From a bacterium (GTDB lineage Bacteria > Patescibacteriota > Saccharimonadia > Saccharimonadales > SZUA-47): a stretch of 35,485 nt of DNA. The stretch covers positions 1 to 35,485 of the forward strand of contig JAUHXF010000010.1 in NCBI GenBank assembly GCA_030427125.1, in the 5' to 3' direction. Below are positions 1 to 19,831 of the stretch, piece after piece. The stretch's first letter is position 1. Every line of letters begins with the position of its first letter. Position numbers and translations under genes: made by a program. Below the pieces are notes generated by a model. That model made no database searches. It had not been told where the DNA came from and was given only the letters and a program-made list of their open reading frames with translations.

Positions 1-466
1 CGACGAGGCAGCAAAGAAAGTACAATCCGCGGTTCGTAACGGCATTATGCCAGTTCTTTGTGTAGGGGAGACGCTTCAAGAACGCTTGTCGGGTGAGACG
101 AATCAGATTCTACATAATCAAGTGACGGCTGGTCTTATGCACTTGACGGCTCGAGAAGTAAGTGCCGCAGTCATTGCCTACGAACCGGTTTGGGCTATAG
201 GTACTGGAGAGTTTGCAAAACCAGATCAGGTCGCAAACGCGATAGACTACATAAGAAAGCAAGTAGAGCATTTATTCGGTGAGCGCACTGCCAAACATGT
301 GCGGATATTGTACGGAGGAAGCGTCGATAATCATAACGCCAAGTCATATTTGAATATTCCAGGATGCGATGGAGCACTTATCGGCGGCGCGTCACTTAAT
401 GCTCATGTGTTTTCAGAGATTGTAGATATTGCATTCCGTGTGCAGCAGGAAAGGTCTCACGGCTAA
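1..466 (+). CDS. tpiA: Triosephosphate isomerase, C-terminal part (5' truncated by window)
   Basis: PVLCVGETLQER, AYEPVWAIGTG, RILYGGSV, DGALIGGASL are TIM signatures; frame open from base 2 (DEAAKKVQSAVRNGIMPVLCVGE). Confidence 0.97.
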   Translation, partial: DEAAKKVQSAVRNGIMPVLCVGETLQERLSGETNQILHNQVTAGLMHLTAREVSAAVIAYEPVWAIGTGEFAKPDQVANAIDYIRKQVEHLFGERTAKHVRILYGGSVDNHNAKSYLNIPGCDGALIGGASLNAHVFSEIVDIAFRVQQERSHG

Positions 467-1041
467 TGGCTACTAAAGAGAATGACGCAAAAGTGTTTGA
501 CGTTGCAAAGCCAACTGATGCGAAGAAAGACATTGGTAGTAAGCCGATGATTATCGGTCATAAGTCACTTAAAGAAGACCCAATGGTCAAAGAAGCTGTT
601 ACTGAGTCTGGCAAAGAAGAAACGCCAACAGAAACAGCCGGGCAAAAAACTGAAGAACAGAAAGTCACACCGCCGAGCGTATCTAAGAAAGTAATCACGC
701 CACCTTCAGAAGAACAGAAGAAAGAAGTAGTTACTAAAGATACAGTAGTTGCGACTGATAGTCAGGAAGGGTCAACTGAAGAAAATATAGAGACCGAAGA
801 AATTGAGGAAGAGCTAAAGGTTGATCCCGAGGTGGAGAAGAATGAGAAGAATGAGAAACTTCACAACATGATTGAAAGTAAAAAGTATTTTGTAACCATA
901 CACGAAAAATCATCATCTCACGCGAAAGTATTTATTATCACGTTTATTATTGCCCTTCTTGTTGGGTTTGCTGTTGTTGCTCTATTAATCGATGCAGAAG
1001 TTCTCGATCTTGGCGTTGATGTTCCGTTTGATTTTCTCTAG
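466..1041 (+). CDS. Hypothetical protein with charged Lys/Glu-rich N-terminal region and one C-terminal TM helix
   Basis: ORF start overlaps tpiA stop; C-terminal hydrophobic segment VFIITFIIALLVGFAVVALLI. Confidence 0.75.
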   Translation: MATKENDAKVFDVAKPTDAKKDIGSKPMIIGHKSLKEDPMVKEAVTESGKEETPTETAGQKTEEQKVTPPSVSKKVITPPSEEQKKEVVTKDTVVATDSQEGSTEENIETEEIEEELKVDPEVEKNEKNEKLHNMIESKKYFVTIHEKSSSHAKVFIITFIIALLVGFAVVALLIDAEVLDLGVDVPFDFL

Positions 1042-1094
1042 TACGTGAATTTTACACCGTTAATCACGCTATTGCTTTGTTAGAATAGAGTCCA

Positions 1095-3263
1095 ATGGAT
1101 GTCATTTCAACGCTCAACGAAGAGCAGAAAAAAGCCGTTCTACAAACGGAAGGACCCCTTCTTATTCAAGCAGGGGCTGGTTCAGGTAAGACAAAAACTC
1201 TGACGCATCGAGTGGCACATATACTACAAGAGGGTTTAGCAGCTCCTGAGCAAATCTTAGCGGTAACTTTTACTAATAAGGCAGCGAAAGAAATGCGAGA
1301 GCGTGTCGCGACGCTACTTGGACAAAATGCAGACAATCGTAACTTCTTGCCCTATATGGGTACATTTCACGGTATCTGCGTTCGCTTACTTCGTCAAGAC
1401 GGTGAGCATATAGGTATACCGAGAACTTTCGTAATTTATGATGAAGCAGACAGGCTAGCAGCGGTTAAACAAGTATCAAAACGTTTACAAATTGATGAGA
1501 AAACATTCCCGCCTCGTACCATGTCGCACGTCATTAGCGCTGCGAAAAACGAAGGAATACGGCCGCAGGAATACACACAAAGTGCTTCATCGCCAGCACA
1601 GAAAACAGCTGCACAAATTTACCCAGGTTATCAGAAAATTCTCCGTGATGCAGGTGCGCTCGATTTCGATGATCTAATCATGAAGACATTAGAAATGCTG
1701 CAGTCTAGTGATGAGTTGCGACAAAAGTGGATTAATCAATTCCGCTATATCATGATTGACGAATATCAGGACACGAACACAGTCCAATATAAGCTTGTAA
1801 AATTGCTTGTAAATAACAACAAAAACATTGCGGTCGTTGGTGACGATTGGCAGTCAATTTATTCTTGGCGTGGTGCAGATTTTCGTAATATTCTCAACTT
1901 CGAACGGGACTATAAAGACGTATTAGTTATAAAGCTTGAGCAAAATTACCGATCTACCAAACCAATTTTGGATGGTGCGCATTCAGTTATTACTAAGAAT
2001 AAACAGCGAAGTGATAAAAAGCTTTGGACGTCTTCGTCTACTGGGAAGCCAATACAAATAGTCGCGGTTAGTACACAGCGTGCAGAGGCAGAGACGATCG
2101 TGCGTCGTATCAAGAATGCTGTTGAAGGCGAAGTTCGTCGATTGAGAGATTTTGCCGTGTTGTATCGAACTAACGCACAAAGTCGTGCAATTGAAGAGGC
2201 TTTCCTGCACTACGGTGTCCCATACCGTATTGTCGGTGGACAGCGTTTTTACGATCGCAAAGAGATAAAAGATATAATGGCGTATCTTCGGTTTATTTAT
2301 CAGCCTGCGGACCGTATTAGTTTTGAGCGTGTTGTAAATGTGCCGACTCGAGGGATTGGTGCCGTAAGTATGCAACGTTTCTATGCATGGCAAGAAAGCA
2401 ATAATCTAAACTTGCTTGATGCTTTGCGTCGCGCGGATGAGGTGCCGCAGTTGCCGAAGAAAGCGATGCAAGGTTTGCGTGACCTGGCTGATATTGTTGA
2501 CTCGACACAGTCGATTATGGAGGATACATCGGTCGCAGGACTAATCGATGGGTTAGTTCGGAGAATAGAGTACAACCAACACTTGGACGACGGTACTCCT
2601 TCTGGAGAAGCCCGCCAAGAAAACGTGCAAGAACTGCTTAGTGTCGCCAAAGAATATAATGAGCTTGGTTTAAGCGGCTTTCTAGAGGAAGTGTCGTTGA
2701 TTAGCGACATTGATTCGGCTGAGTTTGGGAGCGACACCGTTATGTTGATGACGCTACACGCGGCTAAGGGGCTTGAGTTTCCAGTTGTATTTATGCCGGG
2801 CATGGAGGAGACAATCTTCCCGCATAGTCGTGCGTTGTATGATCAATCAGAGATGGAAGAAGAGCGTCGGCTTTGTTACGTTGGCATGACGCGAGCAAAA
2901 GAAGAGCTATATTTGTTACATGCTTCAAGTCGTATGCTATATGGCGGAGTGCAACATAATCCACCAGCTCGTTTTTTATCAGAAATTGGCGCAGAATTGG
3001 TCGAAGAAGGAGTATCTTCATTCCAGGCTTTTGCTTCTTCGCCGCATGCGCAACCAGAACAAATAGGTTGGACCAAGCAGGTGAAAGCCGCACAGGATGA
3101 GCCTCGCTATGTAGCAGAGTTTCACGAGGGTGACAGTGTTGAGCATCAGCTGTTTGGTGAAGGCAAAATTGTTGAGACAGATGGTGACATGGCCGCTATC
3201 TATTTTAAAAAAGCAGGGGTGAAAAAGCTAAACACCTCAATCGCTCCACTAAAAAAGCTATAA
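1095..3263 (+). CDS. UvrD/PcrA-family DNA helicase (SF1)
   Basis: QAGAGSGKTKTLTHR (Walker A), MIDEYQDTN, VVGDDWQSIYSWRGAD, LEQNYRST, LMTLHAAKGLEFPVVF, CYVGMTRAKEELYLLHA. Confidence 0.97.
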   Translation: MDVISTLNEEQKKAVLQTEGPLLIQAGAGSGKTKTLTHRVAHILQEGLAAPEQILAVTFTNKAAKEMRERVATLLGQNADNRNFLPYMGTFHGICVRLLRQDGEHIGIPRTFVIYDEADRLAAVKQVSKRLQIDEKTFPPRTMSHVISAAKNEGIRPQEYTQSASSPAQKTAAQIYPGYQKILRDAGALDFDDLIMKTLEMLQSSDELRQKWINQFRYIMIDEYQDTNTVQYKLVKLLVNNNKNIAVVGDDWQSIYSWRGADFRNILNFERDYKDVLVIKLEQNYRSTKPILDGAHSVITKNKQRSDKKLWTSSSTGKPIQIVAVSTQRAEAETIVRRIKNAVEGEVRRLRDFAVLYRTNAQSRAIEEAFLHYGVPYRIVGGQRFYDRKEIKDIMAYLRFIYQPADRISFERVVNVPTRGIGAVSMQRFYAWQESNNLNLLDALRRADEVPQLPKKAMQGLRDLADIVDSTQSIMEDTSVAGLIDGLVRRIEYNQHLDDGTPSGEARQENVQELLSVAKEYNELGLSGFLEEVSLISDIDSAEFGSDTVMLMTLHAAKGLEFPVVFMPGMEETIFPHSRALYDQSEMEEERRLCYVGMTRAKEELYLLHASSRMLYGGVQHNPPARFLSEIGAELVEEGVSSFQAFASSPHAQPEQIGWTKQVKAAQDEPRYVAEFHEGDSVEHQLFGEGKIVETDGDMAAIYFKKAGVKKLNTSIAPLKKL

Positions 3264-3270
3264 TATATTT

Positions 3271-3705
3271 ATGTCTCGTATTTTGTTTTTCTTACTGTGG
3301 CCGCTTATATGGTTGTATGCACCGATAACTCGACGTGTTCGTGTTCTTATAAAGCATGGTGATGACTATGTGCTGGTCATTAACAAGTTCGGTCCTGGAA
3401 AATGGCAATTACCTGGTGGCGGAATTAAGTTCGGTGAGTCAGTCGAAGCAGCTGGAGTACGTGAAGTCGAAGAAGAGCTAGGACTCGTTATAGCACACGT
3501 AAAGAAGCTGCACGATGCGTTTATCGTCGTGAAGCAGTTTGGGCTACTAATGCGCTATAGTTACGTTTTTATTGAATTAGATGAACAGAAAGAATTAATT
3601 TTCAATCGGGAGCTACAAGACGCCCGGTGGGTGTCGGCTGACGAAATGAGCAACATTGCGAAAGAAGTTAGCATTGGGCTCGAACTTGTTGATAAACAGA
3701 GGTGA
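3271..3705 (+). CDS. NUDIX hydrolase with N-terminal hydrophobic segment
   Basis: Nudix box GGGIKFGESVEAAGVREVEEELGL. Confidence 0.93.
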   Translation: MSRILFFLLWPLIWLYAPITRRVRVLIKHGDDYVLVINKFGPGKWQLPGGGIKFGESVEAAGVREVEEELGLVIAHVKKLHDAFIVVKQFGLLMRYSYVFIELDEQKELIFNRELQDARWVSADEMSNIAKEVSIGLELVDKQR

Positions 3706-3742
3706 GTGCTAAAATATTATATACGCTATAGAAAGCGTAAAT

Positions 3743-5005
3743 ATGAAGAAAAAATTCATCAAGAAAATACATAAAACGAAAAAGAGTGCTGCAAAAAAGT
3801 CTAGATTTCTACTGCGACATCCTTTGTTGCTGCCCGTCACGACATTTGTAGTGTTGTTTTTTGTTGGATTAGCTGGGTTTGTGGCGATGGGCGGCTCAAC
3901 GCAGGGCGCCGAGGACGCCCGCATTGTGAATGTGTTTGTTGATGGCGAGCAGCAGACGGTGACGACACGTGCAGACACCATCGGTGCTTTGCTTGAGAGG
4001 CTAGATTTAAATCTGGCTACTGAGGACATCGTAGAGCCTGAGGTTGAGGAACCGATCATTGAGGATGATACTCAGATAAATATCTATCGAGCTCGTCCCG
4101 TAGAATTGACTGAAGATGACCGAATCATTACTGTCGTTACTGCGCAGCGCGCTCCTAGACTCATTGCAGAAGAAGCCGGTATCGAACTATTACCTGAAGA
4201 CGAAGCAGTTCTGGATGAGACTGAGTTTAATGTACTCGAGTCTGGTGCGACAGAGCGGCTTATTATTAAGCGGTCTGTTCCAATTAGATTTAGCGTGTAT
4301 GGTGTGTTGAAGCCTGTTCGTACAACAGCAGGCACGGTTTCAGAGTTATTAGAAGAGCAGGGTATTACGCCAAATGAAGATGAAGTTGTGCAACCAGCTC
4401 TTGATGCAGCAATTAAGCCAGAGCTGCTTGTTGCAGTTAATCGACCAGGCGTAAAGACGATTGCTGTAGAAGAACCAATTCCTTATGACGTGGAAACTAA
4501 AAATGATGATAGCATCACTGCTGGACAAATCCAAGTAGAGAAAAAGGGCAAAGACGGCGTACGTGCTGTTGTTTATGAAATAGAAGAAGACGATGAAGGC
4601 GAAGAGATCAGCCGTAAAGAAATACAGAAAGTTGTCGTAGAGAAGCCAGTCACGGAGATTCGTCTGCGAGGCACGAAGATAGTAGCCCCAAGCTTCAACC
4701 CTTCTACAACAGTATCTGGAGACAAAGCCGCACTGATGGCTGCAGCAGGAATAGCTGAGTCAGATTTTGGGTATGTTGATTCAATTATTTCTAAAGAATC
4801 TGGCTGGCGCCCGGGAGCAGTCAACTCAAGTTCAGGGGCTTACGGATTATGCCAGTCATTACCAGCGAGTAAAATGGCGTCGGCTGGCTCAGATTATCGT
4901 ACTAATCCTGTTACGCAGCTCAAATGGTGTGCAGGCTACGCCGTAGGAAGGTATGGCGGATGGGCTGGAGCGTATAACGCATGGCAAGTGCAGCGCTGGT
5001 GGTAG
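3743..5005 (+). CDS. DUF348/G5-domain cell-wall protein with C-terminal lysozyme/transglycosylase-like domain (YabE/Rpf-like)
   Basis: N-terminal TM; repeated ubiquitin-like DUF348 modules (VNVFVDGEQQTVTTRADTIGALLERL...); G5-like segment (IPYDVETKNDD...GTKI); C-terminal SKESGWRPGAVNSSSGAYGLCQ...AYNAW. Confidence 0.88.
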   Translation: MKKKFIKKIHKTKKSAAKKSRFLLRHPLLLPVTTFVVLFFVGLAGFVAMGGSTQGAEDARIVNVFVDGEQQTVTTRADTIGALLERLDLNLATEDIVEPEVEEPIIEDDTQINIYRARPVELTEDDRIITVVTAQRAPRLIAEEAGIELLPEDEAVLDETEFNVLESGATERLIIKRSVPIRFSVYGVLKPVRTTAGTVSELLEEQGITPNEDEVVQPALDAAIKPELLVAVNRPGVKTIAVEEPIPYDVETKNDDSITAGQIQVEKKGKDGVRAVVYEIEEDDEGEEISRKEIQKVVVEKPVTEIRLRGTKIVAPSFNPSTTVSGDKAALMAAAGIAESDFGYVDSIISKESGWRPGAVNSSSGAYGLCQSLPASKMASAGSDYRTNPVTQLKWCAGYAVGRYGGWAGAYNAWQVQRWW

Positions 5006-5566
5006 CTATTTTTTGAAAATCAGGATGTATACCAAAGCAGCCTGAGTGACAGTGCTATAAATAGGAGCGAGTAGTAATACAGCATCTAACTCTCCAACTG
5101 AAATAGCAGCTAAAAGGGAACTTATGCCCCCAAAAATAAATGCACTAGGAGTCTCACTTTCGGGATCATTTATTGACTTCATGAAGGTTGGCGCGAGTGC
5201 AACGCTGGCAGCAAATAAGTTTGCCAAAATGCTGAGCAATGGATCATCGAAAACTACCCACAGAGACACACCGAACAGAGAAATAATGAGTGAAACTACA
5301 TCAAACCTCGAGCTACCACCAGTTCCATTCCAAAGTGATGCTATGAAGATTGCTCCAGTAGCCAAAACAGCCGCTCCAAATAACCACAAAGAGTTTCTAG
5401 CACCTGCTGCGTATTGATTTGCAAACCCTATGCTGTTCAGTAAAAAAATGATTCCCCAAGTAACCCGATGAGGTTGCGTTTTCTTTTTCAAGGTATCTAA
5501 AAAGTAGGGAACATCTCCTAAAAAGAAGATGACAGAACTCAGAACACCAAGAATAGTAAAAAACAT
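5006..5566 (-). CDS. Hypothetical multi-pass membrane protein
   Basis: Several hydrophobic segments (FFTILGVLSSVIFFLGDV, SLWLFGAAVLATGAIFIASL, VVSLIISLFGVSLWVVF). Confidence 0.75.
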   Translation of the reverse strand: MFFTILGVLSSVIFFLGDVPYFLDTLKKKTQPHRVTWGIIFLLNSIGFANQYAAGARNSLWLFGAAVLATGAIFIASLWNGTGGSSRFDVVSLIISLFGVSLWVVFDDPLLSILANLFAASVALAPTFMKSINDPESETPSAFIFGGISSLLAAISVGELDAVLLLAPIYSTVTQAALVYILIFKK

Positions 5567-5610
5567 TGGATTAAGTATCTCATACTTAGTATCTACGATA
5601 TAGTTATTGT

Positions 5611-6153
5611 ATGAGTGTGAAGATAACGTATTTTGTTCACGGCACCACTACTGATAACGAAACTGGTAAAGCTACAGGCTGGCTACCTGGGGAGCTGTCG
5701 GAATTAGGTAGAAAACAAGCAATAGAGCTTAGTGTTCAAGCTGCTGACAAAAAGTTTGATGCTGTATATTGTTCAGATTTAAAAAGAGCTGTTGAGTCAG
5801 CAAATCTTGGTTTTGGACTAAAATATAAAATCGTAGAGGACGCAAGATTGCGCGAGTGTAACTATGGTGATTACAGTGGAGCCCCGCAAACATTCAAAGA
5901 CAACATGCAATGGTTTGTAAATAATAAGTTTCCAAACGGCGAAAGCTACAAAGATGTTGAAGTACGCCTAAAATCATTTATTTCATCTTTGAGAGAAAGT
6001 TACGATAATCAACATATTGCAATTGTTGCACATCAAGCACCCCAGCTTGCACTAGAAGTTTTACTGAAAGGCAGGACTTGGAGTCAGGCAATTCAAGAGG
6101 ATTGGCGAAGGACGAAAGCATGGCAGCCAGGCTGGGAGTATACAGTTGATTGA
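5611..6153 (+). CDS. Histidine phosphatase (phosphoglycerate mutase-like) superfamily protein, divergent catalytic motif
   Basis: ITYFVHGTTTDN...GELSELGRKQAIEL...DAVYCSDLKRAVESA...LRECNYGDYSG...IVAHQAPQLAL. Confidence 0.88.
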   Translation: MSVKITYFVHGTTTDNETGKATGWLPGELSELGRKQAIELSVQAADKKFDAVYCSDLKRAVESANLGFGLKYKIVEDARLRECNYGDYSGAPQTFKDNMQWFVNNKFPNGESYKDVEVRLKSFISSLRESYDNQHIAIVAHQAPQLALEVLLKGRTWSQAIQEDWRRTKAWQPGWEYTVD

Positions 6154-6925
6154 TACGAAAAAAGAATTAGGCCAGCATTGGCTGCAAGATGAAGATATCC
6201 TGCAGGCGATTGTCGAAGCGGGTGATGTGTCGAGTAATGATTTCGTCTTAGAAATTGGGCCGGGGAAAGGGACCTTAACTGAAAAGCTATTGGAGTCCGA
6301 AGCTGAAGTATTAGCGTTAGAATTTGATCAAGACCTCATACCAGAGCTTGAAAAGAAATTCTCAAATTGCAAAAAATTTGCAATTTCTAGGGGTGATATT
6401 CGGAAATTCGACTATAATACATTACAGCCAGGATACAAGGTTATCGCAAATATCCCCTATTACTTAACAAGTAATCTAATCCGTGCGTTATCGGAAACAA
6501 GCAACCCACCAAATCTTGCGGTTCTGCTTATTCAGAAAGAGGTTGCAGAACGACTATGTGCTCAACCAGGAGATATGAGTATTTTAGCTGTTACAGCACA
6601 GTTTTATTTTGAGTGTCGTTTAGACATCGAAGTGCCTGCTGAGTTCTTCACACCACCACCGAAAGTCGACTCACAAGTAGTCGTTCTAAGCAGGCGGTCA
6701 CAGAATCTCTTCGATGTTGATGAGCAGAAATTTTTTAGCCTCGTTAAGGCTGGGTTCTCTGAGAAGCGTAAAACACTCCGCAACTCATTGAGTGGTGGTT
6801 TGCAGCTCTCAAAGGATGATGTTGAGACGCTTTTAGATAAAGCCGACCTGTCTCCAACTGCTCGCGCACAAGAATTATTGCTAAGCCAATGGCACGAGTT
6901 ATACTTGGTGTATGAATCACGATAA
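6146..6925 (+). CDS. rsmA: 16S rRNA (adenine1518-N6/1519-N6)-dimethyltransferase
   Basis: LGQHWLQD, VLEIGPGKGTLTEKL, VIANIPYYLTSNLI, FTPPPKVDSQVV, KAGFSEKRKTLRNSLSG. Start overlaps upstream gene. Confidence 0.96.
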   Translation: MIDTKKELGQHWLQDEDILQAIVEAGDVSSNDFVLEIGPGKGTLTEKLLESEAEVLALEFDQDLIPELEKKFSNCKKFAISRGDIRKFDYNTLQPGYKVIANIPYYLTSNLIRALSETSNPPNLAVLLIQKEVAERLCAQPGDMSILAVTAQFYFECRLDIEVPAEFFTPPPKVDSQVVVLSRRSQNLFDVDEQKFFSLVKAGFSEKRKTLRNSLSGGLQLSKDDVETLLDKADLSPTARAQELLLSQWHELYLVYESR

Positions 6926-7427
6926 GCACCATGACATGCATATGCATGATCAAGGCACGGGATCTCCCATTGAATATGTGAAGTTCATAGTTGTCATTGC
7001 TTTTGTTTTTGGGGTGGCAACATTACTCGCTTCCATAGATTTTCGACCTTTCATGGAATCACTTATGGGGGTATTTTTGCTGGTCTTTGGTGGTTTTAAA
7101 CTCATTAATCTTCGTGAATTCGCCTATGGATTTCAGAGCTATGACATCGTTGCTAAGAAAAGCTTACAGTACAGCTTCGCGTATCCTTTTATTCAAATCG
7201 GCCTCGGAGCAGCTTACTTAGCTGGCTTGGCTTCACTGTTGCTGCATGTCTTAGCGCTTATTGTTGCTGTTGTCGCAAGTGTCGGCGTGTTGCAAACACT
7301 TCTCTCAGGTCAAAAAGTGCATTGCGTATGCCTTGGGAATGTTATAAGACTTCCATTATCTCGGATAAGCTTTGTAGAGGATTTCGGCATGGCGCTTATG
7401 GCCATTGCCATGATCTTCATGCGTTAG
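6912..7427 (+). CDS. MauE/DoxX-like membrane protein with His-rich N-terminus
   Basis: MNHDKHHDMHMHDQ N-terminus; four hydrophobic segments; FGGFKLINLREFAYGFQSYD and VHCVCLGNVIRLPLSRISFVED resemble MauE/DoxX-type proteins. Confidence 0.7.
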   Translation: MNHDKHHDMHMHDQGTGSPIEYVKFIVVIAFVFGVATLLASIDFRPFMESLMGVFLLVFGGFKLINLREFAYGFQSYDIVAKKSLQYSFAYPFIQIGLGAAYLAGLASLLLHVLALIVAVVASVGVLQTLLSGQKVHCVCLGNVIRLPLSRISFVEDFGMALMAIAMIFMR

Positions 7428-7465
7428 ATTTCTGCTCGTATACCTGTTATGCTTTATGTGAATAA

Positions 7466-8281
7466 TTGAGGTATCTTATGATAGAGAACAACGACAAACC
7501 TGTCGACGAGTTAAGTAAGAAAATTACCGACACACCACAAAAAGAAACTACAAATAACAAGCCTTCACAGCATAAACACGCAAAACTAGTGCTTGTGATT
7601 GTTTTTATAGTCCTTTTGGGGATTATCGCCGCTCTCAGCTACTTATTACTTCAAGAAGACAAAACTATTTCAGATAACCAAGATGATTCGGTGACAGAAA
7701 TGATAGGTAGCGAGATACCAGATGAAAAAATTGATGAGTCTGTAGGTAATTCAAGACCAGAAATACCTGATGGATTCATATTGTATGAGGATTTAATAAA
7801 CGGTTTTTCGTTTTATTATCCTGAAGTCTGGGGAGAAATAGAGGAGTCTCCAACTTCAAACCTAACTATATACAACGCAAGGTTTACTAATAATGATCGA
7901 GCCCAAATTTATTTAAATTCAGGTGATCAAGATTTCACATCAGGCGGCAGAGGAGGCGCCCTGTGGGATTGTGTCGGTCATACGTATATGGGGAATAAAG
8001 ACATAGGCTGTAAAGCTGTGTATATAGATGAGAGTGGCAAGAGGTTGTCAGGTAGTGTGCTTGAAAACGCATCGAGCTATGCAACGATAGAAGATGATGA
8101 TTTTATTGTTTCAAATAAATATGAATATTTCGAAACAGATGTAGCCGAAATCCTATTTAATCCAAACAGTACAAGATACTATGGAGGTACGCTTGTAATA
8201 CAAGAACCCACAGATGAAGATCTAGATAATCTGGATAAAATGTTATTTCTGTTTTCGACGAAAGTAGCTGAAGGACTATAA
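7466..8281 (+). CDS. Hypothetical single-pass membrane-anchored extracytoplasmic protein (start may be ATG at 7478)
   Basis: TM segment LVLVIVFIVLLGIIAALSYLLL followed by acidic linker and soluble domain. Confidence 0.7.
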   Translation: MRYLMIENNDKPVDELSKKITDTPQKETTNNKPSQHKHAKLVLVIVFIVLLGIIAALSYLLLQEDKTISDNQDDSVTEMIGSEIPDEKIDESVGNSRPEIPDGFILYEDLINGFSFYYPEVWGEIEESPTSNLTIYNARFTNNDRAQIYLNSGDQDFTSGGRGGALWDCVGHTYMGNKDIGCKAVYIDESGKRLSGSVLENASSYATIEDDDFIVSNKYEYFETDVAEILFNPNSTRYYGGTLVIQEPTDEDLDNLDKMLFLFSTKVAEGL

Positions 8282-8298
8282 TACTATACAGGTAAAGT

Positions 8299-8718
8299 AT
8301 GCAGACGCAATTATATTGGCAAATTCACACACTGGCTTTCTTGTTCGAGAAGAAAGCCGATGAACGATTAAAGGAGAGCTTCGGACTCGGATTTGCTCAA
8401 TATAAAGTGCTGGAGGCAATTGGTAGAAATACGAATGCCAAGCAGAACACAGTTGCTGAACTGCTTGATCAAACAGAGGCAAGCATTTCGAGACAAATAC
8501 GTATTCTTTCTCGTAAAAACCTCATTACCGTAGACATGGTCATGGGTAATAAGCGCGCCCGCGAGCTTAATTTAACAGAACAGGGCGAAGAGCAACTGCG
8601 TCTATGCCACGAGCAGCTTGAGATGATTCACGCTCGTGTATTTAACGGTCTCAGCTCGGAAGATGTGCAGTATTTTGAGGCGCTATTCGAGCGACTTATT
8701 GCGAATATTCGCTCATAG
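8299..8718 (+). CDS. MarR-family transcriptional regulator
   Basis: NTVAELLDQTEASISRQIRILSRKNLITVDMVMGNKRARELNLTEQGEEQL, the MarR winged-helix pattern. Confidence 0.92.
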   Translation: MQTQLYWQIHTLAFLFEKKADERLKESFGLGFAQYKVLEAIGRNTNAKQNTVAELLDQTEASISRQIRILSRKNLITVDMVMGNKRARELNLTEQGEEQLRLCHEQLEMIHARVFNGLSSEDVQYFEALFERLIANIRS

Positions 8719-10128: not shown

Positions 10129-10536
10129 GGGGCTGATTTAAGCTCGACATTGGACTTTTACAATCTAGTATGGCAAGCCGGGTTTATCTGAACGTTATCC
10201 GGATAAAATTACAAATGCAAGTTCATTTGATCGCGAAGAAGCTATTGCTAGCCTGAAGAATCTCTTCACAGCTGACAAAGAGCAGTTCGCATTTGCAGCC
10301 TAATTTTTTAGTCTGCGATCTTCGCTACTGACATCAGATAGGTGGCAAGGTCTTATATTCATCTGATTGCTACCGCGTCCGCTACCTGAGGACGAGGAGT
10401 AAGCTTTTCAGGTCGCTCTACGAGAGTCTTTTGTCTATTTATATCTTTCGTAGCTAAGAACGGTAAATAGACTAAGCTTGTAGTCATCTAGAGAGTGAAC
10501 CGATGGACGTGGGGGCAGTACCCACCAGCTCCACCA
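10129..10536 (+). ncRNA. ssrA: tmRNA (ssrA)
   Basis: 5' GGGGCTGATTTAAGCTCGAC; 3' CAGCTCCACCA pairs with GGGGCTG; GACTAAGCTTGTAG block; pseudoknot-like CCGG/TTTATC...CCGGATAAA before an ORF ending ...KEQFAFAA-stop. Confidence 0.93.
10217..10303 (+). other. Predicted tmRNA tag ORF: (A)SSFDREEAIASLKNLFTADKEQFAFAA*
   Basis: GCA resume codon ~10 nt after the predicted PK1; in-frame to GCC TAA. Confidence 0.75.
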
Positions 10537-10544
10537 TTATCTTA

Positions 10545-10572
10545 AGAGGGGTTCACCCCTCTATTTGTTTTT
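10545..10572 (+). terminator. Terminator-like hairpin after tmRNA
   Basis: AGAGGGG TTCA CCCCTCT followed by T-rich ATTTGTTTTT. Confidence 0.65.
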
Positions 10573-10641
10573 GAAGTAAATTCAAAAACTGCGTTACTCC
10601 CCCTAAAGCTCGTTCCACTCGTATCGCAGGACGTGACCAGC

Positions 10642-10658
10642 ACCCACCAGCTCCACCA
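10642..10658 (+). repeat. Direct copy of the tmRNA 3' terminus
   Basis: ACCCACCAGCTCCACCA, identical to 10520-10536; GGACGTG also precedes both copies. Confidence 0.9.
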
Positions 10659-10663
10659 TAAGC

Positions 10664-10690
10664 ACCTCATCTATTGATGGGGTTTTTATT
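10664..10690 (+). terminator. Second terminator-like hairpin after the tmRNA 3'-end copy
   Basis: ACCTCATC TATT GATGGGGT + TTTTA. Confidence 0.7.
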
Positions 10691-10711
10691 TTCCGTTTAT
10701 AATTACTTTCA

Positions 10712-10855
10712 ATGAAGTGCGAAAATAAAATGAGTTTCGATAGCAGGAAAGAGGCAGAAGATACTGCCCGTATTGCATTATTGCAACATGGAACGAAACT
10801 AAACCCTTACCTATGTAGGGAGTGTAATCTGTGGCATTTAGCATCAAAGTTTTAG
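10712..10855 (+). CDS. Small zinc-ribbon-like protein (47 aa), absent from the ORF track
   Basis: MKCENKMSFDSRKEAEDTARIALLQHGTKLNPYLCRECNLWHLASKF: C...SRKEAE...YLCxxCxxWHLAS pattern of small zinc-ribbon proteins. Confidence 0.65.
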   Translation: MKCENKMSFDSRKEAEDTARIALLQHGTKLNPYLCRECNLWHLASKF

Positions 10856-10926
10856 GGGAATACACTAACTCTTAATAATTATATGCATATTGTAAAAAAA
10901 GTTGCATAATAGTATAATTATCGTAA

Positions 10927-12120
10927 ATGACTAGTGATGACAATTCTCCAGAGCGTCTTAAGCGTGAAGCATTAATTACCGCCGCCGCATTCCCCGAACA
11001 GCTTGAGGTGCAACCCGTCAAAGATATAGATGCCTTATTCGGTTTAGCACACGGCTTACTAGATGAGCGTCATGCTATAAGAAAAGCAATTATTGACGGG
11101 GAAAAAAGTGTTGTAACTAAAGACAAACACGCAATGATGCTAGAAACTGTTGAAGATGGCGTCACCGTAAAGAGAGCATGTGATGTATATCTATCTAGTG
11201 GGGTAAGGGAAGACACTGTTCGATTGCTTTTCGTTGATGCGGGGCAAGAGCCTGAATCTGTAGCTAACGATGATGTTATTATCATGACCAGAGGGAATCT
11301 AAAGGACGGAATAACAGTCTTGCTTTTCGATAAGGATAATCTTGGCCTCTATCATGACGCTAATCACGAGCAAGATTATGCTATCGCAAAAGAAGTTATA
11401 GATCGTATTTCAAGCGACATTGAAAGACGGCGGTTTCATAGAAATATGAATAGGCAACGACGCAATAGACGGATACGATCTTCTGTCGTTGGGGCTGCAA
11501 TAGGTATGGCGGCCGGGTATAGTCATAATGTTATTGGTGAACCTGATCTGCCTGCATATCTGCCTGTGGGCCCAGCTGAATGGATTCTTGACTGGAATAA
11601 CGGCCCTGATCACAAAGCTTCAGGATACGATAATCCAGAAAATGAAGTTATAACGCGAGGAATAACAACAGAACTACCTATTGCAGAAGACTATGATGTG
11701 CATGGTGTACCTCGATCTTGGTCTAGTGGGGGGCTTGATTCGTCAACGAGTAACGTCCAGCTAGGTGAGAAACCTGGACTGTGGAAAGTAGATCTCACTC
11801 AAGATACAGAGGTGGCTGATGATATTGATCCAGAAATGCTAGAAGAACGAGTTTCTCAGCTATTTGAAGATTTTGACTGTGGTGACTTGAGCGGAGAATC
11901 CTGTTCTGTATCAGCCATGGATACCGTGAGAAATGCCGAACTAGATGCAACAACAAGATGTCACACTGTTGATATAATATTGCGCCAGGACACTCAGTTA
12001 TTCGGGACTGATAGTAGTCTAGACGGCTATACGTACTACTATGATGATGACTTCCTGAAGCTATGTTCATCGTTAGGTGTATCTGTGCTAGACCCTGAAG
12101 TCTTTATATATAACCCTTGA
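10927..12120 (+). CDS. Hypothetical protein with a central hydrophobic segment
   Basis: 397-aa ORF with TATAAT 8 nt before ATG; RRNRRIRSSVVGAAIGMAAGYSHNVIG segment. Confidence 0.8.
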   Translation: MTSDDNSPERLKREALITAAAFPEQLEVQPVKDIDALFGLAHGLLDERHAIRKAIIDGEKSVVTKDKHAMMLETVEDGVTVKRACDVYLSSGVREDTVRLLFVDAGQEPESVANDDVIIMTRGNLKDGITVLLFDKDNLGLYHDANHEQDYAIAKEVIDRISSDIERRRFHRNMNRQRRNRRIRSSVVGAAIGMAAGYSHNVIGEPDLPAYLPVGPAEWILDWNNGPDHKASGYDNPENEVITRGITTELPIAEDYDVHGVPRSWSSGGLDSSTSNVQLGEKPGLWKVDLTQDTEVADDIDPEMLEERVSQLFEDFDCGDLSGESCSVSAMDTVRNAELDATTRCHTVDIILRQDTQLFGTDSSLDGYTYYYDDDFLKLCSSLGVSVLDPEVFIYNP

Positions 12121-12171
12121 GTACTTGAGAAAACAGGTATAATCTCGTAAAATAGCATCTACGTCATTGAC

Positions 12172-12247
12172 GGCTCTGTAGCTCAGTTGGTAGAGCAGAG
12201 GCCTGAAGAGCCTTGTGTCCCCAGTTCAAGTCTGGGCGGAGCCACCA
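12172..12247 (+). tRNA. tRNA-Phe(GAA)
   Basis: GGCTCTG/CGGAGCC acceptor, anticodon loop CTGAAGA, T-arm CCCAG TTCAAGT CTGGG, encoded CCA. Confidence 0.96.
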
Positions 12248-12254
12248 ATAAAAC

Positions 12255-12277
12255 AACCCAGTAATCTGGGTTTTTTT
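12255..12277 (+). terminator. Rho-independent terminator after tRNA-Phe
   Basis: AACCCAG TAAT CTGGGTT TTTTT. Confidence 0.85.
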
Positions 12278-12365
12278 ATTGAAGATGAATCTTGGACTTG
12301 AACTGGGATAGCTGCGAAGCAGCCCAGTCAGTGCAGCAACGTAGTTGCAAAAAGCGTAGCGCTGC

Positions 12366-12381
12366 CTGGGCGGAGCCACCA
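12366..12381 (+). repeat. Direct copy of the tRNA-Phe 3' end
   Basis: CTGGGCGGAGCCACCA, identical to 12232-12247. Confidence 0.93.
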
Positions 12382-12420
12382 AAGAGAGTTTTGATTGTTA
12401 ACTCAAAACTCTCTTTTTTT
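12381..12420 (+). terminator. Strong terminator hairpin after the tRNA-Phe 3'-end copy
   Basis: AAAGAGAGTTTTGA / TCAAAACTCTCTTT perfect 14-bp arms then T-run. Confidence 0.85.
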
Positions 12421-18112: not shown

Positions 18113-18188
18113 CGCGAAAATTCTGTAGCGTGATTGTAAACAAAAAAGTAACGCCTTTTGTTTACATAATAGCCACTAAATTTTCGCG
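18113..18188. repeat. Nested inverted repeats abutting the tRNA-Gly 5' end
   Basis: CGCGAAAATT (18113-18122)/AATTTTCGCG (18179-18188) enclosing TGTAAACAAAA (18135-18145)/TTTTGTTTACA (18156-18166); all perfect. Confidence 0.9.
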
Positions 18189-18262
18189 GGTGTAGCTCAG
18201 TTGTTTAGAGCGCATCCTTGCCAAGGATGAGGTCGAGAGTTAGAGTCTCTTCACCCGCACCA
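18186..18262 (+). tRNA. tRNA-Gly(GCC)
   Basis: GCGGGTG/CACCCGC acceptor, anticodon stem-loop CATCCTTGCCAAGGATG, T-arm GAGAG TTAGAGT CTCTT, encoded CCA. Confidence 0.95.
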
Positions 18263-19831
18263 AATAGAACGCAACTGTGCATTCTGCACAAATAGACTTG
18301 TTTCACCTCTGGTAAACAGGTCTTTTTTGATGGTTAGGTTTTTGAATTCTGGGGTTTGCATTATTTCCCTCATTTCTGCGCTCATTTGCGCTATTAGTTT
18401 TACGAAATCAGTGTAAATAACAGATACGGAATCGTCATTTACAATCATGGAATCAAAAAGTTGGGTTATTATATTGCGCTTTTCCTGAACGTCCTCGATT
18501 TGGCTATATATAGAGCCTGCTTCTTGGCTTAATTGGATAGTTGTAATGATTTCATCCTTCGGAAGCTTCTGTGCATCTTCTAAGCCTAGGAGCTGCGATT
18601 GTAGCTCGTTAATACGACTCTCAAACTCTTCATGCTTTTGGGCGTATCTCTCGCGGCCAATCTCTCCAGAGAGCTTATCGTCATACAACATATCGTCCAT
18701 GCGCTTGTATCGGTCGATCTCTCTTTGTGTTGACTCTCTCTTGTCTTGCTTGCTGTTGTCCTCCGTTTCATATTCGTTATTTATCATGTCGATCAATAAC
18801 TCCATAATTTCAGGAGACGGGTTTACGAGGTTATCTAGACACTCTTGAATCTGCTCTTGGACATTATCCTCACGAACGTACTTCTTTTTCTTGCAAGCCT
18901 CCATAGACTTTTGACATGAACCATAGTGATAACCCTTTACTTGCCACCAAGTAATGAGCTTTTTGCAGTATTTACAGGTCATTACACCTTTTAACGGATA
19001 ATTATGAACTCGTTTCTTGTGAGGAGACTTGTTGTCCAGTTTTGCTTGAACTCGCTCAAATAGATCCTCGCTAATAATTGGTTCTTGTGCCCCAACATAC
19101 TCTTTGTTGTCGAATAAGATTTTCCCTATATAGAATGGGTTTTTGAGCATACGGTGAGTATTGGACTTCGTAAAAGGCCTTCCTTTGCGAGTTTTCAGTC
19201 CTACCTTCGCCATTTCATCACATATACTCTGAACGCTATGCTCATCCTCTAAATACAGCTTGAAGATTTTCTTAACCTTCCGAGCTGTATCTGGGTCGGG
19301 TACATGAATTTTCTTCCCATCCTTTAGAACTGTCATGTAGCCGGGCGGTGGAGGTGCTGGCATCCAGCCTTGTGCCAATTTCTCAGCCCAGCCTTTCATA
19401 GTTTCTTCACGAAGGTTATCTGTGTACTTCTTGGCTACTGCAAGATGAATGTTCCACATAAACTTAACATCGGATTTTGAGTTCTTATGAATAACGAGGC
19501 TTTCTTTAACGCTGTGTAGGTTTCGAGTTTCATCATCCTGCAGCCAATCATCAACAGCTACCGCATCTTTAAGGTTCCTAGTTAGTCGGTCAGTCTTTTC
19601 AACTGTAAGATGTGTGATCTTTTCTTTTCTGAGATATTGAAGTAGTTCAGTGAATATCTTACGCTCCTGATTCTTGGAAGCGGTTTCAGCAATTCTAAAT
19701 TCCTTCTTAACCATGAATTCTTTTCGTTGACAGTATTCACGAAGTAGCTTTAGTTGAGACTCTAAAGAATAACCATCCTCCTGACCTTTACTCGAAACTC
19801 TAGCTAGTATGACTGCTGTTTGTTCATTCAC
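18251..19831 (-). CDS. Large serine recombinase (resolvase N-domain + recombinase domain + zinc ribbon + coiled coil)
   Basis: AVILARVSSKGQEDGYSLESQLKLLREYC; VEKTDRLTRNLKDAVAVDDWL; MTCKYCKKLITWWQVKGYHYGSCQKSMEACKKK. Confidence 0.95.
   Translation of the reverse strand: MNEQTAVILARVSSKGQEDGYSLESQLKLLREYCQRKEFMVKKEFRIAETASKNQERKIFTELLQYLRKEKITHLTVEKTDRLTRNLKDAVAVDDWLQDDETRNLHSVKESLVIHKNSKSDVKFMWNIHLAVAKKYTDNLREETMKGWAEKLAQGWMPAPPPPGYMTVLKDGKKIHVPDPDTARKVKKIFKLYLEDEHSVQSICDEMAKVGLKTRKGRPFTKSNTHRMLKNPFYIGKILFDNKEYVGAQEPIISEDLFERVQAKLDNKSPHKKRVHNYPLKGVMTCKYCKKLITWWQVKGYHYGSCQKSMEACKKKKYVREDNVQEQIQECLDNLVNPSPEIMELLIDMINNEYETEDNSKQDKRESTQREIDRYKRMDDMLYDDKLSGEIGRERYAQKHEEFESRINELQSQLLGLEDAQKLPKDEIITTIQLSQEAGSIYSQIEDVQEKRNIITQLFDSMIVNDDSVSVIYTDFVKLIAQMSAEMREIMQTPEFKNLTIKKDLFTRGETSLFVQNAQLRSIWCG

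Follow-up and report, generated by a model that had tools for sequence, protein, structure and literature searches.

The stretch of DNA analysed here (the window; 35,485 nucleotides (nt), contig C38 of a 924-kb draft genome in 40 contigs) carries a gene for transfer-messenger RNA (tmRNA, ssrA) and a gene for the transfer RNA (tRNA) tRNA-Phe(GAA), each of which is intact and is followed by a short insert that ends in a copy of the gene's own 3' end. Comparison with related genomes suggests that both inserts are probably very small (about 0.1–0.2 kb), non-coding insertion modules of Saccharibacteria that are targeted to tRNA and tmRNA genes. The repeated gene ends are real and represent a variant of a known architecture: next to a single tRNA gene of Escherichia coli, something similar was recognised long ago.

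Anatomy of the tmRNA and tRNA-Phe loci

All features of the two loci lie on the plus strand. The tmRNA gene (10129–10536; Rfam RF00023, 81.9 bits) was not called by ARAGORN at these positions, and its predicted tag region is long. Its 3' end is present as a proximal copy at 10516–10537 and as a distal copy at 10638–10659, the latter being the presumed original gene end; the two agree at 21/22 nt (95%; direct repeat D2) with a spacing of 122 nt, and contain the exact 18-nt core ACCCACCAGCTCCACCAT. For the tRNA-Phe gene (12172–12247; ARAGORN, and Rfam with 66.9 bits), the proximal copy at 12232–12248 and the distal, likewise presumably original, copy at 12366–12382 are identical (17/17 nt, 100%; direct repeat D4), and are spaced by 134 nt.

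According to sequence reading and folds, both 3'-end copies at both loci are followed by a terminator-like hairpin and a T-run. At the tmRNA locus, the first hairpin (AGAGGGG/CCCCTCT; 10545–10562) would have been brought in by the element, and the second (ACCTCATC/GATGGGGT with a T run; 10664–10687), compared with loci L041 and L045, would be the original one. The corresponding hairpins at tRNA-Phe are located at 12255–12277 (AACCCAG/CTGGGTT with a T run) and 12381–12416 (AAAGAGAGTTTTGA/TCAAAACTCTCTTT; inverted repeat I2). A preliminary description of the window had reported this order of 3' end, terminator, 3'-end copy and second terminator at both genes, and the repeats and the hairpins with their T-runs confirm it; the exact copy of 16–17 nt that was described for both genes holds for tRNA-Phe, but at the tmRNA the copy measures 22 nt and includes one mismatch. 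The same description had noted an inverted match to the T-arm, which is indeed exact at tRNA-Phe, where 12295–12307 is an inverted copy of 12220–12232 (13/13; inverted repeat I4), and imperfect at the tmRNA, where TTACTCCCCC (10594–10603, read from the sequence) has its counterpart in GGGGGCAGTA.

The inverted piece at tRNA-Phe, which assumes the same position in the related genomes G001 and G009, is followed by a turn hairpin, GCTGC-GAA-GCAGC (12311–12323; alignment A5), identical in the sister genome G001, by a partial direct copy of the T-stem 5' strand (CCCAGT, 12323–12328; sequence and alignment A5), and by a hairpin-rich filler between the T-arm halves (12329–12365; alignment A3). It is at this place that cores termed X-A (see below) or X-B are found elsewhere; the filler in the window is not X-A. 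The whole insert is homologous to that of G001, with the terminator start, the inverted piece and the turn hairpin being alike and the filler being different (A5), and the tRNA-Phe locus of G009 has the same left half as the window and G001, with yet another filler behind it. It thus seems that one filler can replace another at a constant position. The tmRNA insert contains a block (10544–10618; AAGAGGGG...CCCCTCT.TTTGTTTTTGAA...TTCAAAAACT...CCCCTAAAGCTC) with further occurrences behind three tRNA genes, namely tRNA-Leu(gag) of the window's own genome and, in G001, tRNA-Leu(taa) and tRNA-Ala(ggc) (alignment A4).

Recurrence of tRNA-end copies in related genomes

The frequency of such copies was determined for 180 tRNA genes of five related genomes, with other tRNAs masked, by counting copies of at least 12 nt of a gene's own 3' end within 450 nt downstream, and by comparison with a control in which tRNA ends and flanks were randomly re-paired. 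Such a copy accompanies 36 of the 180 genes, compared with a mean of 0.45 and a maximum of 3 in the control; for copies of at least 14 nt the numbers are 30 and 0.15, respectively. Copies of the own 5' end are found upstream of 13/180 genes, against 1.1 in the control. The re-paired ends and flanks thus do not reproduce the arrangement, and because the control falls far below the observed counts, chance repeats are ruled out, as had been argued from the two loci in the window. Downstream copies extend from the T-loop to CCA, and upstream copies begin at nt 1 and reach the D-arm or pass beyond it. In relatives, the arrangement is present at homologous as well as non-homologous RNA genes, and within the window's own genome, the tRNA arrays of which were read from separate stretches, the layout is also seen at tRNA-Gln(ctg), tRNA-Glu(ctc), tRNA-Met and tRNA-Val(gac).

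Two types of module can be distinguished. In the 3' type, the intact tRNA is followed by a terminator, an inverted piece of the T-arm and variable loop, a short direct copy of the T-stem 5' strand, a filler X, a direct copy from T-loop to CCA, and a second terminator. The 5' type is the mirror image, with a promoter, tRNA nt 1–25 (or more, as far as the anticodon loop or the T-loop), X, a short stretch of tRNA sequence, the inverted piece, a promoter and the intact tRNA; and one genome, G006, has a complete upstream copy of tRNA-Trp that is broken at nt 25/26, and then again in the T-loop. An inverted piece of at least 8 nt is present in 22/37 3' modules, compared with 10.5% when the tRNA is non-cognate; for 5' modules the values are 10/21 and, in controls, 6.7%. 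Single-strand folding pairs it with the T-stem beside X. Its position varies: it spans the insertion point in some modules and pairs only with the T-stem strand beside X in others. The copies at tRNA-Phe have their own tRNA as best match only in part. Introns spliced from tRNAs are disfavoured as an explanation, since the interrupted copies are mostly truncated and stand alongside an intact gene; 3' modules lack about nt 1–46, and 5' modules often lack the 3' end.

A conserved structured core

A recurrent filler of 87 nt, X-A, which is predicted to fold into three hairpins, occurs at many loci (alignment A1; model R1). In 111 distinct X-A sequences, 96.8% of the cells are paired, both-side changes occur in 31/34 pairs, and the covariation score is 0.544, compared with 0.153 for shuffled sequences and 0.05–0.09 with slid partners; this alignment was fitted to R1 and is hence biased towards it. 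In A1, a MAFFT alignment of the first 14 X-A sequences, 26/34 pairs already have changes on both sides. Rfam scans returned no match at X-A loci or in the inserts of the window, so that a known RNA family was dropped as their identity, and one strict X-A pattern has no match in IMG/VR, which speaks against viral carriage to the extent of that pattern.

The distribution of X-A is narrow and patchy. Copy numbers range from 0 to 18 per genome overall (G000, 2; G001, 18; G006, 11; G008, 4; G045, 18) and from 0 to 13 among 25 genomes of one genus, and this patchiness within a genus is as expected for mobile DNA. In a phylum-wide sample, X-A is confined to 8/287 genomes, all in one order, and almost all exact pattern matches belong to records named Candidatus Saccharibacteria. 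Of 91 X-A matches, 61 have a junction that can be mapped to an intact tRNA close by; these junctions fall on the 3' side in the T-loop (36), on the 5' side in the T-loop (8), on the 5' side at nt 26 (10) or elsewhere (7); the other 30 have no placeable junction, 13 of these lying on stretches without an intact tRNA. The tmRNA of G050 has a module whose core resembles X-A (L054, 43.2 bits to R1), and by eye the tmRNA modules of G015 and G010 are similar.

In three loci (L327, L227 and L214), X-A is nested within X-A, with the last hairpin split. A second, shorter core (TTCGCTAATCCCCCG...CGGGCGGATTA...ATTCCCG) was seen at tRNA-Glu of the window's own genome (L254), apparently several times after the gene, and at tRNA-Met (L027).

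Filled and empty sites

Comparison of orthologous sites provides examples with and without a module. In G000 and G001, tRNA-Thr(tgt) is followed by tRNA-Thr(ggt), and only in G001 are there about 104 base pairs (bp) of extra DNA between them; this insert ends in ATCCGACAGGTGGCTCCA, beyond which the flank matches G000. G001, unlike G000, has a 5' module in the interval from tRNA-Gly(tcc) to tRNA-Arg(tct). For tRNA-Val(tac), 22 congeners were compared: copies are clear in G346, G348, G341 and G357, weak or truncated in G349, G356 and G340, and lacking in the remaining congeners, with one contig stopping at the gene. At the window's tmRNA, the empty site is indicated by terminator similarity only, as the distal copy is followed by TAAGCACCTC...GGGGTTTTT, like the tmRNA of the insert-free relatives G022 and G027; the evidence from filled and empty sites comes from loci other than tRNA-Phe. 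Because filled and empty orthologous sites are seen for tRNA-Thr, tRNA-Arg, tRNA-Val and tmRNA, the modules are, on this comparison, gained or lost as units.

Proposed mechanism and alternative explanations

Three origins had been considered in the preliminary description, namely scars of integrative elements, template-switching during replication, and decoy or attenuation RNAs. The first is the best supported of the three, and agrees with the filled and empty sites, the patchiness, the recurrent core and the starts in the T-loop; however, the word scar may be too weak, since a structured core that recurs points to a module with a function and not to random leftovers. A module of the 3' type would enter the gene at the T-loop and supply a replacement 3' end (about nt 56–76), usually with a new terminator, such that the gene stays intact, while the original end and its terminator would be displaced 100–180 bp downstream to become the second copy. 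The two copies would then be separated by the inverted T-arm piece, part of the T-stem in direct orientation, and a core rich in hairpins, which breaks the displaced copy in its T-loop. Modules of the 5' type, at the D-loop, nt 25/26, the anticodon loop or the T-loop, would supply a replacement promoter and 5' end.

We infer that the underlying event may be site-specific recombination in which the gene takes part with its T-arm and the module with a T-arm of its own that is split by X; the crossover would fall at the boundary of X and nt 56. The folded core is probably the recombination site by analogy, and together with the inverted T-arm it may constitute a site of single-stranded type, as in integron attC and CTXphi attP. 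The modules themselves encode no enzyme, the leading candidate for the mover being a XerC/D-like protein, in most of these genomes the only tyrosine recombinase. More tentatively, the modules may belong to an undescribed recombination system of Saccharibacteria that uses tRNA genes as landing sites and the folded core with the inverted target copy as single-stranded site, and in which enzyme-free modules, and perhaps gene cassettes, spread in trans; the E. coli RtT repeats would then be an isolated relative in type. We regard this wider proposal as possible, though less likely than not.

Several observations weigh against an origin by insertion of mobile modules. The window itself has no match to R1, its inserts sharing the architecture and not the X-A core. 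The modules carry no gene, and their mobility is deduced from comparison. Often the partner of the inverted piece is the partial T-stem next to the core, so that the insertion point is not spanned, and the folded-site model therefore does not apply uniformly. When terminators were compared between filled and empty sites, the distal flank was the more similar one in 15 pairs and the proximal flank in 21, with the largest difference at tRNA-Thr(tgt) of G001 and G000, and the assignment of the distal copy as the original therefore rests on few anchored cases. Identical terminators follow both copies at tRNA-Val of G357 and tRNA-His of G313, a finding that fits tandem duplication as well as insertion; duplication thus probably takes part at some loci. 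Finally, the annotation of E. coli RtT, which has the same architecture, describes it as an RNA that arises by processing of the tRNA transcript.

This last point leads to the alternative that the inserts are functional RNAs of the RtT type, structured and released from the transcript of the tRNA by processing at the second CCA, which would regulate or titrate tRNA processing factors, the inverted T-arm masking the T-arm of the tRNA. Strong covariation of the kind seen in RNA, including G-U pairs on the tRNA-sense strand, and the exact maintenance of tRNA ends would be accounted for, as would the annotation of RtT as a small RNA (sRNA) processed from the tyrT transcript. We nevertheless consider it unlikely, in view of the terminator ahead of most 3' modules, on account of which little transcription is expected, and of the patchiness of position, tRNA identity and copy number even in one genus; moreover, one and the same core is found upstream and downstream of genes and in several tRNA loops, and related genomes differ in core at the same tRNA-Phe locus. 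The terminator and the patchy distribution likewise disfavour a decoy or attenuation RNA for the 3' modules.

The identical terminators mentioned above, and inverted pieces that abut direct T-stem copies and thus resemble fold-back products, would be expected if the inserts were by-products of replication or repair, formed by tandem duplication of tRNA ends and fold-back template switching and devoid of any dedicated mobility. Template-switching could in this manner yield the inverted piece; in pure form, however, it fails to explain a covarying 87-nt core at many tRNAs, and such processes alone cannot move one conserved, compensated core into many unrelated tRNAs at the same few loop positions. 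This makes them a quite unlikely sole source, and insertion of small modules is retained as the preferred explanation.

Comparison with known systems

The closest architectural counterpart is RtT (RF00391) of E. coli tyrT, which has in common with the window the 3'-end copies starting in the T-loop and the inverted and direct T-arm pieces. In the E. coli sequence L417, the 20-nt tRNA-Tyr end AATCCTTCCCCCACCACCAT, reaching from the T-loop to CCA, is present in four copies outside intact tRNAs, mostly 178 nt apart, and each copy is preceded by an inverted T-arm piece (GGGGAAGG), a direct T-stem piece (AAGGTTCG) and hairpins. RtT differs in being a tandem repeat at one tRNA-Tyr locus in Enterobacteria, annotated as a processed sRNA, whereas the saccharibacterial modules are associated with most tRNA types and tmRNA, exist in 5' and 3' forms, and have a core common to several tRNAs. 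The Rfam RtT model (E<=10) matches only L417, and neither the window locus (L061) nor the tRNA-Phe and tRNA-Asn modules of relatives. A second E. coli sequence, L416, lacks any copy over about 1.4 kb downstream of its tRNA-Tyr pair; strains L416 and L417 thus differ at tyrT and provide a ready presence/absence system for this architecture. The modules in turn offer an evolutionary frame for the RtT repeats.

Integrative elements that target tRNA and tmRNA genes, such as tyrosine-integrase islands and tycheposons, restore the 3' end of the gene, leave a displaced partial copy at the far side and cross over in loops; those known are kilobases long and encode an integrase. The inserts described here are similar with respect to the far-side repeat of the gene 3' end, as from a crossover in a loop, and to empty orthologous sites in relatives, but with 122 and 134 bp they are too short for an integrase and could only be non-autonomous. 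We know of neither an 87-nt covarying core nor an inverted target piece described for such elements. Integron attC and CTXphi attP serve as a working analogy for a foldable structured site, and some arrays here have open reading frames (ORFs) between tRNA and module; in contrast to integrons, no IntI was identified, IntI-specific features not having been scored, the target is a tRNA loop, and the ends are tRNA-specific. Literature searches of incomplete coverage yielded no account of modules like these from Saccharibacteria.

The ssrA islands of Dehalococcoides are inserted in the middle of the tmRNA T-loop, and have 20-bp repeats of the gene 3' end, several in tandem, with a conserved motif ahead of the repeat; their integration module encodes serine recombinases, of which DsiB overlaps attL (PMC3146451). 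T-loop insertion in tmRNA and the 3'-end repeat are thus shared with the window. The islands, however, are genomic islands with serine recombinases, whereas the modules are non-coding and measure 0.1–0.2 kb, and the ORF list contains no serine recombinase in either insert of the window.

A host-dependent lineage with reduced genomes has a single structured element in or beside its tRNA genes, in as many as 18 copies per genome, which makes tRNA loci hot spots of rearrangement. The structure-conserved sites constitute a ready set for tracing the responsible recombinase, and as a caution, copies of tRNA ends in these genomes are to be regarded neither as assembly errors nor as chance.

Candidate recombinases and neighbouring elements

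A single tyrosine recombinase, XerC/D-like from its sequence, was found in 11/12 genomes examined, and two in G222. The XerC/D-like gene (L261, L262, L267, L270, L272 and others) lies within about 1–2 kb of tRNA-Arg(cct) in several genomes, and this tRNA is itself module-bearing in G006 and G045. Y1 transposases are patchy among genomes, and an IS200/IS605-type Y1 transposase was rejected as mover, being absent from G001, G045 and G313, all of which are rich in X-A.

Large serine recombinases are present in most genomes examined and are decayed or absent in G006, G305 and G322. In the window, a 526-residue large serine recombinase with Resolvase and Recombinase domains is encoded on the minus strand (18251–19831) and ends inside the 3' end of tRNA-Gly (region 18186–19831); it is likely the integrase of a separate element that reaches the contig end. 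By reading, this element also has type I restriction-modification-like genes and a VirD4/TraG-type ATPase, and similar neighbourhoods occur in relatives. G045 has an 8.2-kb large-serine-recombinase element between tRNA-Leu(gag) and an X-A module (L361, reverse strand, 60–8460), which is read as a separate, later insertion because its own repeat is only GCACCA.

The modules might also be viewed as non-autonomous remnants left by tRNA-integrating elements with a large serine recombinase, in the manner of the Dehalococcoides islands, given that genes for such recombinases run into the 3' end of a tRNA in the window and in G045, adjoin a tRNA in several other relatives, and have a parallel in DsiB, which overlaps attL at an insertion in the tmRNA T-loop (PMC3146451). 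This is the least likely of the explanations considered, and improbable in our view: the G045 element ends at GCACCA beside an older X-A module, which places its crossover near CCA and not in the T-loop, G006 has 11 X-A copies and only a decayed resolvase fragment, and covarying hairpins are unexpected for a double-stranded serine-recombinase site. A serine recombinase as mover of X-A, as the G045 element had suggested, was withdrawn for the same reason, that is, its own GCACCA repeat beside the older module.

ORFs of about 150–240 residues, mostly without Pfam match, are situated between tRNA and module copy in G001 (tRNA-Glu and tRNA-Trp) and in the window's own genome (tRNA-Glu, L254). Such a cassette-like setting, with ORFs of about 150–250 residues, is seen at L246, L247, L254, L303 and L309. 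At L309, about 0.9 kb is flanked by two near-identical modules, and in G001 (L246, L247 and others) the motif GCTTATGCTTGCA is conserved right after CCA, at the start of the gene-bearing stretches.

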